From positions 1-41,933 of IMG/VR virus record IMGVR_UViG_3300024252_000032: a stretch of 41,933 nt of DNA; one strand, 5' to 3'. Made by a program: the position numbers and the translations under genes. Source of the DNA: a virus. This document shows, one piece after another, positions 2,703 through 41,774 of the stretch. Numbering within the stretch: position 1 is the stretch's first letter; the number at the start of each line of letters is the position of its first letter. The notes beneath the pieces were generated by a model. It was not told where the DNA came from, searched no databases, and worked only from the letters and a program-made list of their open reading frames with translations.

Positions 2703-3364
2703 TGATAACACAAGCACTCATATTTAAAAAGGATAACGGCAAACGTTCAAGGACTGCTGTTGGTTTCACAGAGCTACTTGAAAAGGTAGATAAGACGTGG
2801 AAGAAGACTCAGAAAGATGTCGCTTCGGCAATGTCTGCGGGTACTACTGTACTTACAAAGCTAATAAGAAGTAGGCTAAAAGGAAACAACGAGATGAGTG
2901 GTAGATTGAAATACGCAAAGAAGTCTCTATTCAATGTTAGGACTGAAGAGAAAGATGGATTCTTTAGATTTCATTACGAGTATGACTTTCCTATATCAAC
3001 AAGTAGTAAGAGATGGAAGTATGGATTCTTCTTTGCAGATCCAACAGTAAAACTAGGTAATGTGGATGCTATAAGGAGATGGTTAAAGAGGAAGGCTGCT
3101 CAGGGAATGAAGGTATATTACCTAAAGAAAACAAAGGATGGCTATGTACAAGAAACACCAACTAAAGACTGGCAATGGAACGCAGCAACATTTGCTGTAT
3201 TAAACAGTAAAGGTGGTGAGAGTAATTACAAACCTGATAAAGATTGGTGGAAGCTAGACATTAGAGGTAAAGATGCTCAGGTATTAGAAGAAACATTATT
3301 ATCAAAACACAGACAATTAATTCAGTATCAATTTAAAAAAGGTTGGAACAACCTACCTAGATAA
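2702..3364 (+). CDS. Basic structural protein upstream of the tape measure, possible neck/head-closure protein
   Basis: 220 residues, rich in Lys and aromatic residues. A helical N-terminal region around residues 20-60 is followed by a tryptophan-rich part (KRWKYGFFF, KDWQWNAATF, KDWWKLDI). It starts inside the stop of the preceding gene (TAATG). A virion neck or minor tail role is likely from its position between the putative terminator and the tape measure. No family is recognised from the sequence. Confidence 0.45.
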   Translation: MITQALIFKKDNGKRSRTAVGFTELLEKVDKTWKKTQKDVASAMSAGTTVLTKLIRSRLKGNNEMSGRLKYAKKSLFNVRTEEKDGFFRFHYEYDFPISTSSKRWKYGFFFADPTVKLGNVDAIRRWLKRKAAQGMKVYYLKKTKDGYVQETPTKDWQWNAATFAVLNSKGGESNYKPDKDWWKLDIRGKDAQVLEETLLSKHRQLIQYQFKKGWNNLPR

Positions 3365-24743: not shown

Positions 24744-24762
24744 AGTTTTATTTATTTATTGT

Positions 24763-24848
24763 TTAAAGTAATACCGTAGAGTACCCTTAAAACGCATTTT
24801 AAAGCGTTCTAAGAATACTTAACGATAAAGTTATATAATGTATCCATT
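24763..24848 (-). promoter_or_regulatory. Early promoter module, copy 3 (before the PD-(D/E)XK gene)
   Basis: Read on the minus strand: TGGATACATTA (24836-24846), 23 bases, TTAGAACG, a small dyad (ACGC/GCGT around ATTTTAA), 21 bases, then TACTTTAA (24763-24770) where the other copies have TACTTwTG. The spacings equal those of the copy at 39.2 kb base for base. TACTTTTG fits the Bacteroidota -7 box TAnnTTTG, so this is probably a regulated early promoter for the gene starting at 24743. Confidence 0.65.
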
Positions 24849-24870
24849 AAGGGTATAACTGCAACACCAC

Positions 24871-24993
24871 TTACAAGGCGTTAGTAATAACGTAAATTAC
24901 AGCTAGTATAAGGCTAAGAGGTATTAATATCATAAAAAATAACTCTACTGCATTGAAAAACATTTCAATAGTATTATTAAGGAATTTCTTCAT
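24871..24993 (-). CDS. 40-residue membrane protein, paralogue of the one at 39.4 kb
   Basis: MKKFLNNTIEMFFNAVELFF is followed by a hydrophobic helix and the end ITNAL. It aligns along its full length with the 41-residue product at 39422-39547 (shared K-F-x-N, NA-x-E, IPL, IL). Both genes end directly before a copy of the same promoter module, so gene and promoter seem to have been duplicated together. One transmembrane helix; function unknown. Confidence 0.7.
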   Translation of the reverse strand: MKKFLNNTIEMFFNAVELFFMILIPLSLILAVIYVITNAL

Positions 24994-28478: not shown

Positions 28479-28857
28479 CATTATCATTTATTTGTTTGGC
28501 AACCAAGTTTTTACCAGTCCTTGTGCCGTTGTTTTTATTTATAACTAAACTGCAACGAAATGCATCTTGTGTACCTAACTCATACACAGCAGCAATATAC
28601 TTTAGTGACAAGTTATCAATTGCCGTATGGAAGAAGTTAATTGGATTCTTTACTTTATAATTTATATCATAAAATAACTCCATACATCCAAGTAGACAAT
28701 CTGACGCTAACATATCAACTTTCCATTTAGCTACACCTCTAAGTCTGGCTTTGCAGGTGTTATTTGCAAGTGAGAGAAGATCTGCTCCGAACTCCTCAGT
28801 TATTGAGCCAAGCCGTCTGCTTACCTCATAGTTTGTATTAAAATCATTTTCATTCAT
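28462..28857 (-). CDS. Possible sigma-factor-like protein
   Basis: 131 residues. Residues 38-92 (WKVDMLASDCLLGCMELF, NPINFFHTAIDN, LSLKYI read along the chain) follow the pattern of sigma region 2: an acidic D-x-x-x-x-C-x-x-G-x-x-E helix, then an NFF turn and an amphipathic helix. There is no region 4, so it would resemble compact phage late sigma factors such as T4 gp55 rather than a full ECF factor. The likeness is by pattern only. It could read the two bipartite late elements; that is inference. Confidence 0.4.
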   Translation of the reverse strand: MNENDFNTNYEVSRRLGSITEEFGADLLSLANNTCKARLRGVAKWKVDMLASDCLLGCMELFYDINYKVKNPINFFHTAIDNLSLKYIAAVYELGTQDAFRCSLVINKNNGTRTGKNLVAKQINDNDGYID

Positions 28858-30200: not shown

Positions 30201-30773
30201 TTACAGTCCCAGCTTAGATTGAATATCAGAAGAAACGACATACTTTGTAGTGATATCATTTAATGTACCACCAGCTTTAACAAACTTTACTATATCATCC
30301 CACTTTGGGTGTGCTTCAGTTAGCACTGGTTTGCTATCTACTCTCTTCTTAGGTGCTTGTGATTGTGCCTTAGTGTTTGCTGTTGAATCAAAATCAAGCC
30401 CATCCTCAGTTATATCGAATGCAAACATCATTAAGTATCTGCTACTGTATGTATTAAGACCACCAAGTTGCTGTGCTAGGTTTGTAGCTTTAATCTCAGG
30501 GATAGCTGTTACTTGATTAAATGTAATTGACTCACCACTATCTATATCTGACACTGTGAGCGAAGCGTAGATATCTCTATTAGCATCTCTCTGTGTGTTA
30601 AACATAGTCACCAAACCATTCTTTGAACAAGCGTCCTGAACCAGTTCAGTTATTTGTGATGGTAGGAAGTACTCGTAGTTAGAAAATGTATTCTTACCTT
30701 TCTTCTTAACTGTTGTGTTCCTGATTATTTGTTTAGCTTCTGCTAACTTCTGTAAAACTTTTGTATTTGTCAT
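30201..30773 (-). CDS. erf: ERF-family single-strand annealing protein
   Basis: 190 residues. An N-terminal YEYF at 33-36 and the family signature AQQLGGLNTYSSRYLMMFAF near residues 100-119 identify the ERF superfamily of annealing proteins. The C-terminal third is a low-complexity linker followed by a short helical end. Promotes homologous annealing in replication and repair, with the adjacent SSB-like protein and nucleases. A terminator lies between it and the SSB-like gene upstream. Confidence 0.9.
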   Translation of the reverse strand: MTNTKVLQKLAEAKQIIRNTTVKKKGKNTFSNYEYFLPSQITELVQDACSKNGLVTMFNTQRDANRDIYASLTVSDIDSGESITFNQVTAIPEIKATNLAQQLGGLNTYSSRYLMMFAFDITEDGLDFDSTANTKAQSQAPKKRVDSKPVLTEAHPKWDDIVKFVKAGGTLNDITTKYVVSSDIQSKLGL

Positions 30774-31876: not shown

Positions 31877-32386
31877 TTATATATTTTTGTATCTCCAAAT
31901 GAAACCACCAGCTTGACTTCTTTCTCCTCTTGCACACGAGCTAATATTACCATTCTCAACACCTGTCTGTCTTTTAGCTTCATTTAGTGATTCAAACTCA
32001 TCAATAACAATACCCTCTTTTGTGAGTTGGATGATAGGCTTCTTAGGATTGTTATGTATACCACTAACAAGAGCGTGATTCATATTTTCTTCAAATGTAT
32101 TCCAATCCAGATTATCGACTCTATTATCATCTTTTATTCCATTTATATGATTTACAGTAATTTTGTTTAATGGATTATCAATAAACGCATTAGCCACCAA
32201 TCGATGAACTGGCATTGATTTCTTTCCATCGTCGTTAATTAAAGACACTACTTTGTAACCATAACTATTACTTACGTTTTTTAGTATTCTTCCATTAATC
32301 TTATTGAAAATGAAACTCTTAACTCTTCCAAGATTAGATGCTTGATAGCCATCAAAACCATCAATATCTTTCCAGATTTCTGACAT
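31877..32386 (-). CDS. Free-standing HNH homing endonuclease (NUMOD4-HNH-NUMOD1)
   Basis: 169 residues with three parts in the usual order: NUMOD4 at the start (EIWKDIDGFDGYQASNLGRV), HNH with HRLVANAFI at 61-69 and VNHINGIKDDNRVDNLDW around 78-95, and NUMOD1 at the end (IIQLTKEG, FIWRY). No intron is visible around it, so it is a free-standing element inserted between two early genes. It cuts at a homing site in related phages lacking it. Confidence 0.93.
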   Translation of the reverse strand: MSEIWKDIDGFDGYQASNLGRVKSFIFNKINGRILKNVSNSYGYKVVSLINDDGKKSMPVHRLVANAFIDNPLNKITVNHINGIKDDNRVDNLDWNTFEENMNHALVSGIHNNPKKPIIQLTKEGIVIDEFESLNEAKRQTGVENGNISSCARGERSQAGGFIWRYKNI

Positions 32387-35254: not shown

Positions 35255-35671
35255 TTATATTGACTTTAATTTGTCTGTCTTATCTAACCACAATCTCTTA
35301 TCTCTTAATGATTGCAGTGTACTGATGCCGTTGTCTTTAAATGTCGGCATTGGATGTAAGGAGTTAATTGACAAGTCCCATATCATATCCTCACCTATCA
35401 TTGTTGCCGTATCATTTACATTACGAAGGTAATCTGATGTATAACATACACCACAAGTGTATCCATTATCGCCACTGTAAATAATTGGAGTCCATCCACT
35501 CTTAGATATTCTATCTCTATTAATATATAGATAGGATTTAAACTGCTCAATAGTCATTAACTCTGTGTGAATGTCTACCATCCATTTTTTACTGTTAATA
35601 ACTGCCACTGTATTAGCATCTGCTATACTTTGTAGGTGGTCTACATTTGAATTAATCTTCTCTTTTGTCAT
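35255..35671 (-). CDS. Hypothetical protein
   Basis: 138 residues, with a strand-rich middle (GWTPIIYSGDNGYTCGVCYT) containing a CGVC pair. The single CxxC does not make a full zinc site. Not recognised. Confidence 0.55.
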   Translation of the reverse strand: MTKEKINSNVDHLQSIADANTVAVINSKKWMVDIHTELMTIEQFKSYLYINRDRISKSGWTPIIYSGDNGYTCGVCYTSDYLRNVNDTATMIGEDMIWDLSINSLHPMPTFKDNGISTLQSLRDKRLWLDKTDKLKSI

Positions 35672-36927: not shown

Positions 36928-38796
36928 TTAGTTTAAAGTATACTCGTCTTTTTCTTCATCATAATCGCAATCTGACTTTAATGCATTCGTGCCATCAGCA
37001 AGTTCAATAACATCATCGTCCCATTTAGAAGCAAAGCTTCCATCGTGTAGCTCAATTGAATTTTCTGGTCTAACAAATGTATCGCTATGCTCACAGTATA
37101 TAATGTCATCAAGGTGTACATACTCGCTTTCATCTTCAACCCAAGCTACATAGTCAAGGTAAAAGAATTCATTTCTATCAGGAACATAAGCTAAATTGTG
37201 ATCACTTTCCATAAAGTCCTCTGATATAAATTCATAACTACCATTAATCAAGACTTCATTAGCATTATCTCTAAATTCCATATCCTCTTCGAGACCCAAC
37301 CAAACTGTACATTCATTACATCCCTCTTCATCAGATCTGCCTACCCATACAACATCATCTTCATCAACAGGTTCACCACAATTGTGACATTCTCCACCAC
37401 TTTCAAGCCTTGTCAACTCATCAATTACATCATAACCTTTATATCTATCCTGAGACACTAAGAATCCCTCTTTAGTATAGAATTTTAATGTATCTACATA
37501 AGGTGCTTCACTTGAATCTCCGTCAACCACATTTGCAGTCCTGAATAAACTTCTCTCTTCGCCATCTTTATCCACTATACTTTCACTTGAATGACTTTGG
37601 TCTTTTTTGTGCCACCAATTTTTATTCTGCGCATACTTTTTATAAGCATCTTGTGTAGCTTCAGTTCCGTATACCCTATCCATCATTGTGCATTCCTTAA
37701 TTTCTCCATCTTCTTCTATTACGATGTCCCAAATTAATGCTCTAGACTGCAAATGACCATCGCCATTCAGTGTGTATGCAATTTTTGCATTACCATCATA
37801 GAAATCTAAATGTTCTGATGTTGAATTGTAACTCTCTTTGTTCATACAACTGCTTCTCAATGTACCACTCCCTAATTCAGCAGTCTTTATATTATATGTT
37901 TTACTGACTTCATCTGAAATAAGTATCTCAACTTGCTTCGGCTTTAACGATGTAGCTAATATTTCTAAATACCTATCCTTAACCTTAGTAATTGTATCAG
38001 CATCTAATATATTATCATCAACAACATTAATGCATTCACTAAAGTTCCTAAGAAATTTACTTATTTTCATTGACTGTCGTCCCTCTCTTCGCCACCTCCT
38101 ATTTTCTGTCATATCTTGAAGCCCATTATTGTAAGTTATACTATCATCTCTAAGTGTATATGAATTACCATTTCCTTTAGTCTTAATCTTAACGCCTATT
38201 GTTGTTGCAGTTGAACGACCTAGTGTAAGCATAGGTAGTTTAAAGTCTACATCATATGATGTTCCTGATACCTTAATAGACTTTATTCTTAATGACTCGG
38301 TGGATATTCTGCTTATAAGCCTAACACTCATCTCTTCACCATCATCATAGTCCCATACACCCTCATCAGTACGAAAGTTCTTAGGTGACTCAAATTGATA
38401 GTTCCAAACCTTTAGGAATGAATCCCTCGTGCTAACAACCTCTCCTTTAAATCCACATAGTATTGACATCAGGTAATCTTGTCTAGCCATTTCTCCGTCA
38501 ACGAATCCAATCCATTTATTTGGCTCATAAGGTATAGTCTGAACCAATATACTCGCTTCACTTCGCAGTATATTATATAATGATGAATACACTTCGTGCG
38601 TTGCAAATCTAGTTGTATAACCATCTTCCCAATTTCTTGATGTAACTTCGTTTAGTAGTTCTTTTACAACCCTATTATCTATCGCTTCAAATATATCTCT
38701 ATATCCAATAGCCTTATAATAGTTTGTTGTTAGACTTCTCACTAATGTAATAGCATTTAGTGATTTCATCCCATTGTAATAATGTGTTTGTATCAT
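36928..38796 (-). CDS. Large conserved-type phage protein with zinc-binding cysteines
   Basis: 622 residues. A central block (SSCM at 315-318, ALIWD at 353-357, MDRVY at 372-376 and YAQNKNWWHKK near 388) follows an order seen in uncharacterised proteins of many lytic phages. Four cysteines (470, 473, 493, 496) could form a zinc ribbon, and the acidic C-terminal part repeats a YxxxDxxxxxE-type strand. No catalytic role can be stated. First gene after the repeat-rich putative origin and preceded by one promoter copy. Confidence 0.7.
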   Translation of the reverse strand: MIQTHYYNGMKSLNAITLVRSLTTNYYKAIGYRDIFEAIDNRVVKELLNEVTSRNWEDGYTTRFATHEVYSSLYNILRSEASILVQTIPYEPNKWIGFVDGEMARQDYLMSILCGFKGEVVSTRDSFLKVWNYQFESPKNFRTDEGVWDYDDGEEMSVRLISRISTESLRIKSIKVSGTSYDVDFKLPMLTLGRSTATTIGVKIKTKGNGNSYTLRDDSITYNNGLQDMTENRRWRREGRQSMKISKFLRNFSECINVVDDNILDADTITKVKDRYLEILATSLKPKQVEILISDEVSKTYNIKTAELGSGTLRSSCMNKESYNSTSEHLDFYDGNAKIAYTLNGDGHLQSRALIWDIVIEEDGEIKECTMMDRVYGTEATQDAYKKYAQNKNWWHKKDQSHSSESIVDKDGEERSLFRTANVVDGDSSEAPYVDTLKFYTKEGFLVSQDRYKGYDVIDELTRLESGGECHNCGEPVDEDDVVWVGRSDEEGCNECTVWLGLEEDMEFRDNANEVLINGSYEFISEDFMESDHNLAYVPDRNEFFYLDYVAWVEDESEYVHLDDIIYCEHSDTFVRPENSIELHDGSFASKWDDDVIELADGTNALKSDCDYDEEKDEYTLN

Positions 38797-38824
38797 TGTA
38801 ATATATTTTAAATTATTTATAAGT

Positions 38825-38884
38825 CATAAGTATGTCATCAGAATCTATCACAAGGCTATTTTAAGCCGTTCTAACGAACTTTCT
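38825..38884 (-). promoter_or_regulatory. Early promoter module, copy 1
   Basis: On the minus strand: AGAAAGTTCG-TTAGAAC, small dyad GGCT-TAAAAT-AGCC, then TTG (plus 38851-38853), 18 bases, TACTTATG (38825-38832). The last two fit the Bacteroidota -33/-7 pattern with one mismatch. It drives the 622-residue gene whose ATG is 29 bases downstream. Confidence 0.7.
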
Positions 38885-38940
38885 ATTGTAAATGGTACAT
38901 TGTGTTCACTTACATTAATTTTAATCTTAAATCGAATCTA

Positions 38941-38997
38941 TTGTATGCAATATAGTTTATTGTATGCAATATAGTTTATTGTATTAAATATAGTTTA
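38941..38997. repeat. Three 19-bp direct repeats
   Basis: TTGTATGCAATATAGTTTA occurs twice without change, followed by a third copy with three substitutions (TTGTATTAAATATAGTTTA). They abut the 17-bp array and share the TATAGTT core with it. Confidence 0.95.
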
Positions 38998-39003
38998 TAG
39001 TTA

Positions 39004-39118
39004 TACTATAGTTATAGTTATACTATAGTTATAGTTATACTATAGTTATAGTTATACTATAGTTATAGTTATACTATAGTTATAGTTATACTATAGTTAT
39101 AGTTATACTATAGTTATA
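39004..39118. repeat. 17-bp iteron array, six full copies plus a partial seventh
   Basis: TACTATAGTTATAGTTA begins at 39004, 39021, 39038, 39055, 39072 and 39089 without change; a 13-base seventh copy begins at 39106. Each unit contains the palindrome ACTATAGT. All A/T except two G and one C per unit. Lies between two copies of the early promoter module. This is typical of iterons at a phage origin. Confidence 0.95.
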
Positions 39119-39189
39119 TATAAATAGGAGTAGTAGTAATCTATTATAATTCCTATACCCCAAAATATAAGTTACCTGTAATGTCATAC

Positions 39190-39285
39190 CAAAAGTATGT
39201 CACTACAATCAATTTTAAGGCTATTTAGAGCCGTTCTAATGGACTTTCTCCTAGAAGTAGGGTAATGTATCCATATAAGGTGTAA
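39190..39285 (-). promoter_or_regulatory. Early promoter module, copy 2
   Basis: On the minus strand: TGGATACATTA, 23 bases, TTAGAACG, dyad GGCT-CTAAAT-AGCC, 21 bases, TACTTTTG (39190-39197), which is a perfect TAnnTTTG. It points towards the iteron array, with no gene before it for about 390 bases. Confidence 0.7.
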
Positions 39286-39421
39286 AGTAGCTTAAATGCA
39301 ATATTACATCATAGCAATATAGGAGGATGCTATCCAATATATATCGTATAGTCTAAACCAATCTCCCTCCTCACTTTCTATAAGCCTAATTATAATTGTT
39401 TTCATTTCATATATTCCCTTT

Positions 39422-39748: not shown

Positions 39749-39889
39749 TTATATACCCCCATTATTAAAAAGTTCGTTATTAATTTCATCATAGAATGTA
39801 TCTTCTATGGCGTTTTCAATTATCAAATTGTTCAGGTGTGTATGACTAAAGCCATCCTGAACGAACGAGTCCCGTATTGAATTGTTCAT
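39749..39889 (-). CDS. 46-residue acidic protein
   Basis: Begins MNNSIRDSFVQDGFSHTHL, acidic and helical. It is the first ORF after the structured RNA region on the minus strand, with an A/T-rich leader. Unknown role. Confidence 0.5.
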   Translation of the reverse strand: MNNSIRDSFVQDGFSHTHLNNLIIENAIEDTFYDEINNELFNNGGI

Positions 39890-39929
39890 AATAGTATTTG
39901 TTTATTAGTGTAAATTATTTATTGATATA

Positions 39930-40628
39930 TTTGTGAGCGTGATGGATTTGCACCATCTAATTTGTATGAATATCATACCTACTCGCCCTAAGTTTTCGCC
40001 ATAAGCGATATACTGAAAATCTTTTTTCTGTACTCGGTTAACCTTTAATATTACAAACCATAAATTGACTGTGTTAATACCCTCCGTTACCTTGCTTAGC
40101 TAGGTTACATTTTATCTGATGTAATATCTCAGGGGTTTATAGACTCCTTATATTCGCATATATTCCGTGCTTATTACCATTCAGCAATGGTAAAATAAGT
40201 AGAGTCCGAAAATACTATTTTCTATTATCAATGCGCCCACATATAAAAGTATGAAGGGGTATCGCATAACCTTTTGGTGTCCTAATGTTGCACTGTTGTA
40301 ACAGTCCGAACACTTTGCCAATTGCAATTATAGGTATCATTAACCTGTAATCGTTTACCTTTTTTCTAAGCCTTATGCTTATTTGGTAGGTAAAAAGTAT
40401 TTCCAATATGTCTGTAAATCAATCCCTTAAAAGTTTTTTGTTATCGTTGATAATCTTACTTAAAAACAATCTTAATAATTTACAATGAACGGCAATTTTT
40501 TAATCTTCAGTTACCTCAGTTTTCCTTAGGGTTTAAATAACCTACTGTTTTCTACCACCTCAAGCCCATTACAAATTAATGTAACAGGCTGTGGAGGTTT
40601 TGTGTGGGTGCTAGTCGCACCGATTTAA
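39930..40628 (-). ncRNA. Candidate large structured noncoding RNA (about 700 nt)
   Basis: No ORF here looks coding, but nested hairpins fill the stretch: 40607-40621 (GGTGC/GCACC), 40557-40598 (three-part stem), 40277-40313 (GTGTTC/GGACAC enclosing ACTGT/ACAGT), 40231-40267 (ATGCG/CGCAT, CCC/GGG, CATA/TATG), 40208-40222 (GAAAAT/ATTTTC), 40142-40206 (GACTC/GAGTC enclosing a 12-bp interrupted hairpin), 40079-40136 (multibranch), 39964-39978 and 39941-39957. The last, read on the minus strand, is a 5-bp stem with loop TGCAAAT, which fits a T-loop. Size and phage setting recall GOLLD and ROOL RNAs; identity is inferred. Strand follows the flanking genes and the T-loop. Confidence 0.6.
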
Positions 40629-41279
40629 CTAGGTCAATTTAATGCCTTTTGCTTCGAAGCTGTCAACCTGAGCATTTAAAAGCTCTAATTTCTCACTAGC
40701 TTTTTTTAGCTTGTCGTTATTAGTACTAATCAATTCCTTTACTAAGGGAAATGATGTTTTTTTGTAGCTTTCCTTTAAATCACCTATAATAGTCTGTATT
40801 TTATCAATACTTTTTATTTGGGCTGTTACCTTGCGATTGAGCTTTTTGGAGAAGTAAGCATATAAATTTGCTTCAAGTCCCTGAACAGTAATCATATTTT
40901 GTTGATATTGAGAAACCGAAATATAAATTTTTGACAGTGTGGTAAGCATCTCAGCAATATTTGAGTAGCCATTGAAGTCAAAATACATTGTTTGGGCTAG
41001 GGAATTATAAGATATTTTGCCAAATTCTGTTTTTACTTTTGTACCTTTTAAGTAAGCTGTGAAGTCAGCATCTAGCCCATTTACTGTTAATGCCATATTC
41101 CTAATTTTGCCTAGGGAAGTATAAGCCTCTTTTAATTGTTCATTTGAAATTTTTAACTTTTCGTTTAAACTTTGTTGAGTTAGTGTTGTTAGTGTTTTCA
41201 TTGTGTTTACTGTATTATTAATATTTGTGTTATTAGTGTTATTTGTGTTTTCTGTTGTAATCGTTTTTTGTGTTTTCAT
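40629..41279 (-). CDS. Hypothetical helical protein with Asn/Thr-rich N-terminus
   Basis: 216 residues from the ATG at 41279. The first 26 residues are Asn/Thr repeats; a second ATG at 41201 begins MKTLTTLTQQS, matching the start of the 90-residue gene upstream, and may be the true start. The body is a long helical protein (heptads in LKKASEKLELLNAQVDSF) with two similar segments (TVNGLDADFTAYLKG and TVQGLEANLYAYFSK), suggesting an internal duplication. Function unknown. Confidence 0.6.
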   Translation of the reverse strand: MKTQKTITTENTNNTNNTNINNTVNTMKTLTTLTQQSLNEKLKISNEQLKEAYTSLGKIRNMALTVNGLDADFTAYLKGTKVKTEFGKISYNSLAQTMYFDFNGYSNIAEMLTTLSKIYISVSQYQQNMITVQGLEANLYAYFSKKLNRKVTAQIKSIDKIQTIIGDLKESYKKTSFPLVKELISTNNDKLKKASEKLELLNAQVDSFEAKGIKLT

Positions 41280-41743: not shown

Positions 41744-41774
41744 CAAACATACGACAAAACTTAACACGAGTCAA
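41744..41774 (-). promoter_or_regulatory. Bacteroidota-type promoter for the 90-residue gene
   Basis: On the minus strand TTG (plus 41772-41774), 20 bases, TATGTTTG (41744-41751), a full match to the TAnnTTTG -7 box. It is the first promoter on the minus strand at the right end and probably fires early with the host polymerase. Confidence 0.75.

Follow-up and report, generated by a model that had tools for sequence, protein, structure and literature searches.

In a 41,933-base virus record (the window, meaning the whole of the DNA analyzed), a stretch of about 740 nt near the right end carries no recognizable gene, and the question that it raises is what kind of RNA, if any, is made from it. 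The original prediction, based on the letters of the sequence, had placed a large, densely structured phage noncoding RNA at 39930-40628, with a T-loop at its presumed 3' end and possible membership of the GOLLD or ROOL families. A large phage noncoding RNA is a possible reading of the stretch. The T-loop belongs to a tRNA-like leader element, a kind that is also present in related and in cultured phages.

Gene order and limits of the gene-free stretch

Head and tail genes (portal, terminase, and tape measure) occupy the plus strand of the window and replication genes the minus strand; the host probably belongs to the Bacteroidota. The genes around the stretch all run leftward from an early promoter (Table 1), so an RNA made here would be minus-strand. 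The distance between TTG and TAnnTTTG in this promoter agrees with the spacing of known Bacteroidota promoters. Relatives were picked by their helicase and exonuclease matches, giving L175, L176, G001 (contig L095), and G025 (contigs L097/L177). L175 has a helicase 97% identical to that of the window, and its contig starts at window position 35593; the L176 contig starts at 38594. The early promoter is covered by the contigs of G001 and G025, and its surroundings are 79-90% identical in these two relatives (90% in G025). No close relative's contig spans the gene-free stretch; the nearest known relatives, contigs of IMG dataset 3300025133, end before they reach the RNA.

The right end of the window is probably a physical genome end or the edge of a repeat. 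At this end (41933), the window, read as its reverse complement, and the G001 contig (L095:1) open at an identical point with GCATAA; G025 extends just 23 bases beyond the shared start (L097 about 24).

The stretch is real and noncoding. No frame in 40628-39890 exceeds 63 aa, and the small ORFs have no match in PHROGs, in agreement with the absence of a plausible coding frame originally noted. The gene-free character of the locus thus holds, with its limits corrected to 40628-39890 and its RNA assigned to the minus strand. The product of the 46-aa gene that follows resembles, by eye, proteins of 41-43 aa in G001 and G025. Homologues of the upstream part, hereafter the body (about 640 nt), were not detected in the relatives. 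The candidate RNA compared by blastn with phages gave two trivial 37-nt matches only. Searches for related loci with the 622-aa, 216-aa, and terminase proteins found none, and a helicase alignment searched in genomes had no match.

Table 1. Features of the early region of the window
Feature	Position	Strand	Details
Early leftward promoter, Bacteroidota type	41744..41774	-	TTG 41774-41772 and TATGTTTG 41751-41744
216-aa gene, 5' of the candidate RNA	40629..41279	-	weak PHROG match only
Gene-free stretch (candidate RNA), ~740 nt	39890..40628	-	from the stop codon of the 216-aa gene to the ATG of the 46-aa gene
Two stable 5' hairpins	40557..40621	-	GGTGC/GCACC 40621-40607; ACCTC-AGCCTGTTACA/TGTAATGGGCT-GAGGT 40598-40557
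Row of local hairpins	40141..40393	-	40393-40355, 40353-40325, 40314-40284, 40267-40231, 40207-40141
Tentative closing helices	39910..40545	-	40545-40534/39921-39910 (p 0.82); 40531-40525/39992-39986, CCCTAAG/CTTAGGG (p 0.69)
D-armless tRNA-like structure	39935..39988	-	acceptor GGGCG 39988-39984 / CGCTC 39939-39935
Anticodon-like hairpin GTATGA/TCATAC	39978-39964	-	RNA GUAUGA-UAU-UCAUAC, 3-nt loop
T-arm GATGG-TGCAAAT-CCATC	39941..39957	-	5-bp stem, p 0.99; T-loop UGCAAAU
Shared leader TACACTAATAAACAAATACTATTATG, ends in start codon	39887..39912	-	alignment with G025 and G001
46-aa gene, directly after the leader	39749..39889	-	open reading frame; start codon ATG at 39889

Several other features of the window were recorded. 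In the gene-free region beside the 622-aa gene, two kinds of repeat together occupy 38930-39130, 38825-38884, and 39190-39249: a palindrome of 17 bp, TTATAGTTATACTATAG, present about eight times, and a 60-nt element with paired hairpins, present twice at 80% identity. Parts of the 60-nt element recur at L175:8829-8864 and L176:13994-14051; these repeats are origin- or operator-like. The 622-aa protein itself (36928-38796, minus strand) matches nothing in Pfam or PHROGs. Its weak relatives come from Cellulophaga phages (phi38:1, phi40:1, and Calle) and from uncultured phages of >600 kb, the latter with several places per record. The strongest minus-strand fold of the window (24751-24900, z -9.4) occupies the gap at the junction of the rightward and the leftward genes and is perhaps a bidirectional terminator. 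A NUMOD4/HNH homing endonuclease gene, I-HmuI-like, is present at 31877-32386 (minus strand), and 31889-32363 is unalignable in G001.

Folding of the stretch

The original prediction described dense RNA structure. The minimum free energy (MFE) z score of 39930-40628 is -3.2 on the plus and -3.7 on the minus strand, and that of 40628-39890 (minus strand) is -3.8, with none of 120 shuffles as stable. Among 699-nt minus-strand segments taken elsewhere in the window (mean z -1.2, sd 1.6), however, 4 of 46 have z scores as low as -3.86. The density claim is upheld against shuffled sequence and qualified by these ordinary segments: folding is modest, and in a genome whose minus strand generally folds well its stability is unexceptional.

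Locally, the 5' hairpins (40621-40557) and the 3' end are the conspicuous parts. The sub-part 40630-40550 has a z score of -3.9, with 0 of 60 shuffles equally stable. Between the two, the row of local hairpins has pair probabilities of 0.53-0.99 (z -2.3 for 40400-40130). Hairpins named in the original prediction are found there on the minus strand, including the ACTGT/ACAGT stem (40305-40301/40296-40292, p 0.92) and a GGACTCT/GGAGTCT stem (40207-40201/40147-40141, p 0.95) that encloses CTTA/TAAG and TACCATT/AATGGTA. The outer stem GTGTTC/GGACAC competes with AGTGTT/AACATT, and the ensemble favors the latter. A long-range closing helix was considered and dropped because shuffles do equally well, 39 of 120 holding as many long-range pairs.

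A tRNA-like structure and a leader at the 3' end

The reading of a T-loop at the 3' end is supported, and the loop proves to be one part of a complete tRNA-like structure, D-armless, for which relatives have counterparts. On the coding strand, the T-arm adjoins the acceptor, with a 5-bp acceptor (one G-U), a 5-bp T stem, and a 1-nt gap. Of the T-loop consensus, U54, C56, and A58 are retained, and U55 is replaced by G. GG is present at the D-loop position, and there is no D stem. The element (63 nt) folds locally, with a z score of -3.2 and 1 of 200 shuffles as stable. It falls short of a full tRNA cloverleaf, lacking the D stem and having an anticodon-like loop of 3 nt, and ARAGORN finds no tRNA anywhere in the window. 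An alternative pairing of the acceptor strand with 40240-40234 was dropped because the local GGGCG strand gives the better fold.

The distance from the element to the ATG at 39889 is 45 nt, and the interval contains an A+U-rich leader, TACACTAATAAA..ATTATG, that is common to the window and its relatives. The window form, TACACTAATAAACAAATACTATTATG, matches TACACTAATAAATAAATAATATTATG (L097:504) and TACACTAAAAAAATAACATTATG (L097:760) in G025, both of which follow tRNA-like structures of that phage, and more loosely a sequence at L095:494. The tight form occurs nowhere else in 435 kb; 0.05 occurrences were expected in the six nearest records, and the blastn E value is 7.8e-5.

We searched for such structures with a descriptor that called for a T-arm of 4-6 bp with a T-loop, a gap of 0-1 nt, an acceptor no shorter than 5 bp, a combined minimum of 10 bp, and GG after the 5' strand. 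Its single match in the 41.9-kb window is 39988-39935, with 0.1 expected from shuffles. Its limits had been relaxed to admit the window element, already known by then, with its 5-bp acceptor and G in the loop, and the case for the window element is therefore weaker. A stricter descriptor misses the window element and picks up structures of the relatives (G001, two; G025, one; L176, one). The loose descriptor also recovers the elements of these three relatives. Its only match in other phage records, about 326 kb, is an ordinary tRNA; in a further 310 kb it had 22, of which 19 are ARAGORN tRNAs, two lie in Cellulophaga phage phi38:1, and one lies in L046. L046, a 176-kb phage record, has at 2495-2585 a tRNA-like structure with a second internal T-arm, GACGGTTCGATTCCGT, that is ARAGORN negative. 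The elements of the window, the relatives, and phi38:1 are all in coding orientation, 19-49 nt before start codons, and neither ARAGORN nor Rfam calls any of them.

Elements in uncultured relatives

Directly after the early promoter, G001 and G025 carry a different RNA of about 290 nt (L095 about 179-480; L097 about 203-515). Compensatory changes show that this early RNA is structured. Across 53 hand-placed pairs, 10 double changes are still paired, with two one-sided and two broken, a count biased in favor of pairing since the helices were chosen with both sequences in view. On a fixed alignment, the tRNA-like part has 23 pairs with five double changes and none broken, and the 5' part has 19 pairs with three double changes; slid controls gave no doubles for either part. 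The 5' part likely contains a pseudoknot, AGGTC/GACCT with TTCATC/GATGAA (TTCCTC/GAGGAA in G025).

The tRNA-like part, element 1 (L095:370-464; L097:409-502), has a D-loop GG, a long P2-like arm, a T-arm GCGG-UUCGANU-CCGC, and an 8-bp acceptor (ACCATAGC/GCTATGGT in G001; ACTATGGG/CCCATAGT in G025) with three compensatory changes between the two phages. Each contig has a second, small version downstream (L095:1212-1254; L097 about 696-741). The genes after the element differ between G001 and G025, and its link to a particular gene is therefore loose. In L176, a tRNA-like structure (2999-3073) lies 19 nt before a DnaA-C-like gene.

Covariance models of the G001/G025 RNA (R1 and R2) gave only AT-repeat or chance matches in the window, and R1 at E<=10 misses 39988-39935, so that sequence-level homology between the window element and the G001/G025 elements was not found. 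Across 40 related records the two models matched only G001 and G025, plus the second G025 element (R1, E 2.5e-6). The kinship of the window element with these elements rests on geometry, position, and leader, not on sequence models. A pseudoknot core that appeared by eye to be common to the window and G001/G025 (AAAAGGTT..AACCTAG versus AAAAGGTC..GACCTAG) was dropped because the model search gave it no support. The pattern AGACCTAGAATTAAAA matched 70 stretches in viral contigs, real in G001 and G025 only; the pseudoknot pattern had 21 matches in bacterial genomes, all chance, and blastn of the G025 RNA against phages returned A+T-rich chance matches.

Elements in Cellulophaga phage phi38:1

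The two elements of phi38:1 (L239, NC_021796.1) are unannotated and lie on the minus strand. The first (20818-20678, fold z -4.4) precedes the start codon of an RtcB ligase gene by 27 nt, and the second (15750-15682) precedes that of a phosphatase gene by 23 nt. Both are kept in Calle_1, where the 13-bp arm of the first differs by one double and two single changes, all still paired. The same phage has two identical tRNA-Glu genes (28605-28676 and 30575-30646, minus strand), each solitary, in the same operon, and 20 nt before a start codon; their retention may have to do with processing and not with decoding.

Interpretation and alternative explanations

That similar tRNA imitations recur at like sites in related viruses suggests a signal to cut or to protect early messages. 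The reading that we favor, tentatively and with slightly less than even confidence, is that the stretch ends, on its 3' side, in a tRNA-like leader element that belongs to the early operon and is processed by the host tRNA machinery, freeing the upstream RNA from the mRNA. The window presents, in order, an acceptor/T-arm stack, an anticodon-like hairpin, the A+U-rich leader, and the start codon. Most likely, host tRNA-processing enzymes would recognize the element while it is part of a polycistronic early transcript. The predicted RNase P cut lies 5' of GGGCG, at the first acceptor base, which makes the +1 base of the window element a G; tRNase Z or CCA addition would perhaps act next on the 3' side. 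Cleavage would part the structured noncoding body from the downstream mRNA and set or protect their ends. Against such processing, the window acceptor is short (5 bp, one of them G-U), U55 is replaced by G, and CCA is not encoded. That the region is transcribed as a single RNA, that RNase P recognizes the element, and that the body has a role are inferences, and the body may be a cis leader, a released RNA, or plain spacer.

The same element could instead work uncut, as a cis-acting structured 5' leader whose tRNA-like fold, with the upstream hairpins, raises the stability, translation, or antitermination of the early-operon mRNA. The coding orientation and constant nearness to start codons of every element would fit, as would the conserved leader sequence after the element and the fact that the G001/G025 RNA starts immediately behind the early promoter, a place typical of antitermination or leader RNAs. 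We nevertheless think this somewhat unlikely: acceptor, T-loop, and GG loop are features for tRNA enzymes that a plain stem would not need, and in phi38:1 ordinary tRNA-Glu genes occupy equivalent places. A little less probable still is a functional tRNA-like element beside a body that amounts to spacer, degenerate sequence, or a replication or packaging element acting as DNA, and that folds no better than the rest of the genome. The four segments matching the stretch in z score, the chance level of long-range pairing, the lack of a body homologue in relatives, and the neighboring 38797-39421, gene-free with iteron-like repeats, are what such a body would predict; yet none of the 120 shuffles is as stable, the 5' hairpin pair is strong, phages seldom keep 740 idle bases, and G001 and G025 retain structured RNA upstream of their element.

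An early RNA acting in trans, for instance by mimicking tRNA and so engaging or diverting a host tRNA nuclease or another defense, would suit the first region of an early operon near a probable genome end, the tRNA mimicry, and the fast change of sequence between relatives that an arms race predicts. We judge it improbable, as small versions (L095:1212-1254) have no anticodon arm and the fixed place before start codons favors a role in cis. Most improbable of all is kinship with GOLLD or ROOL, the large ornate nanocage-building RNAs that the original prediction had named. Size, phage location, and many hairpins had recommended these families, but an Rfam cmscan of the window at E<=10 matched no GOLLD, ROOL, tmRNA, RNase P RNA, or group I/II intron; the conserved 3' region of GOLLD (RF02032) had no match at E<=10, nor did ROOL (RF03087), a weaker negative than that for GOLLD because the control genomes lacked ROOL too. 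The window also has none of the tRNA genes that are common, though not universal, next to GOLLD, and its long-range helices are at chance level.

A broader proposal, which we regard as doubtful, is an undescribed class of early RNA in Bacteroidota phages, made up of a fast-evolving structured domain (0 to about 640 nt), a D-armless tRNA-like end, and a fixed leader that precedes a gene. Its largest member would be the one in the window, and the pseudoknotted RNA of about 290 nt in G001 and G025 would be a second family. If the favored processing reading is true, imitations of tRNA that escape annotation software tag the early messages of some Bacteroidota phages, which process transcripts by tRNA punctuation as mitochondria do. 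The elements can be tested in the cultured phage phi38:1, and tRNA-like elements would offer a route to large noncoding RNAs upstream of them.

Comparison with known RNAs

This kind of leader element appears to be undescribed so far: our literature search, in which most subscription journals were outside coverage, found no account of tRNA-like leaders of this sort in phages. GOLLD and ROOL are large phage RNAs that are often close to tRNA islands (PMC12286853). The window stretch is likewise large, hairpin-rich, and phage-borne, but differs in having no covariance-model match, tRNA island, or evidence of a long-range core.

The tRNA-like domain of tmRNA (RF00023) resembles element 1 of G001 and G025, which has an acceptor, a stemless D loop, a long P2-like arm, and a T-arm; this element differs in lacking an internal tag reading frame and a pseudoknot array. 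No tmRNA model match exceeded the gathering threshold (the small G001 element scored 11.4 bits against 47), and ARAGORN found no tmRNA. The window itself has neither a tmRNA model match nor a tag frame.

YrlA is a bacterial Y RNA with a tRNA-like module (PMC7790460). The likeness lies in a noncoding RNA with such a module and in the phi38:1 element directly before an RtcB ligase gene, and the difference in the absence of an Rfam match and of a Ro60/Rsr-like protein among the scanned window proteins.

RNase P cuts a range of substrates other than pre-tRNA, including pre-tmRNA, phage M3 RNA, the precursor of the P1/P7 C4 antisense RNA, polycistronic mRNAs, and tRNA-like structures of plant viruses (PMC11143913). 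With these the elements described here share tRNA-like acceptor/T-arm geometry within a longer phage or polycistronic transcript; they are set apart by their recurrence as predicted leaders before start codons and by a D-loop GG without a D stem.
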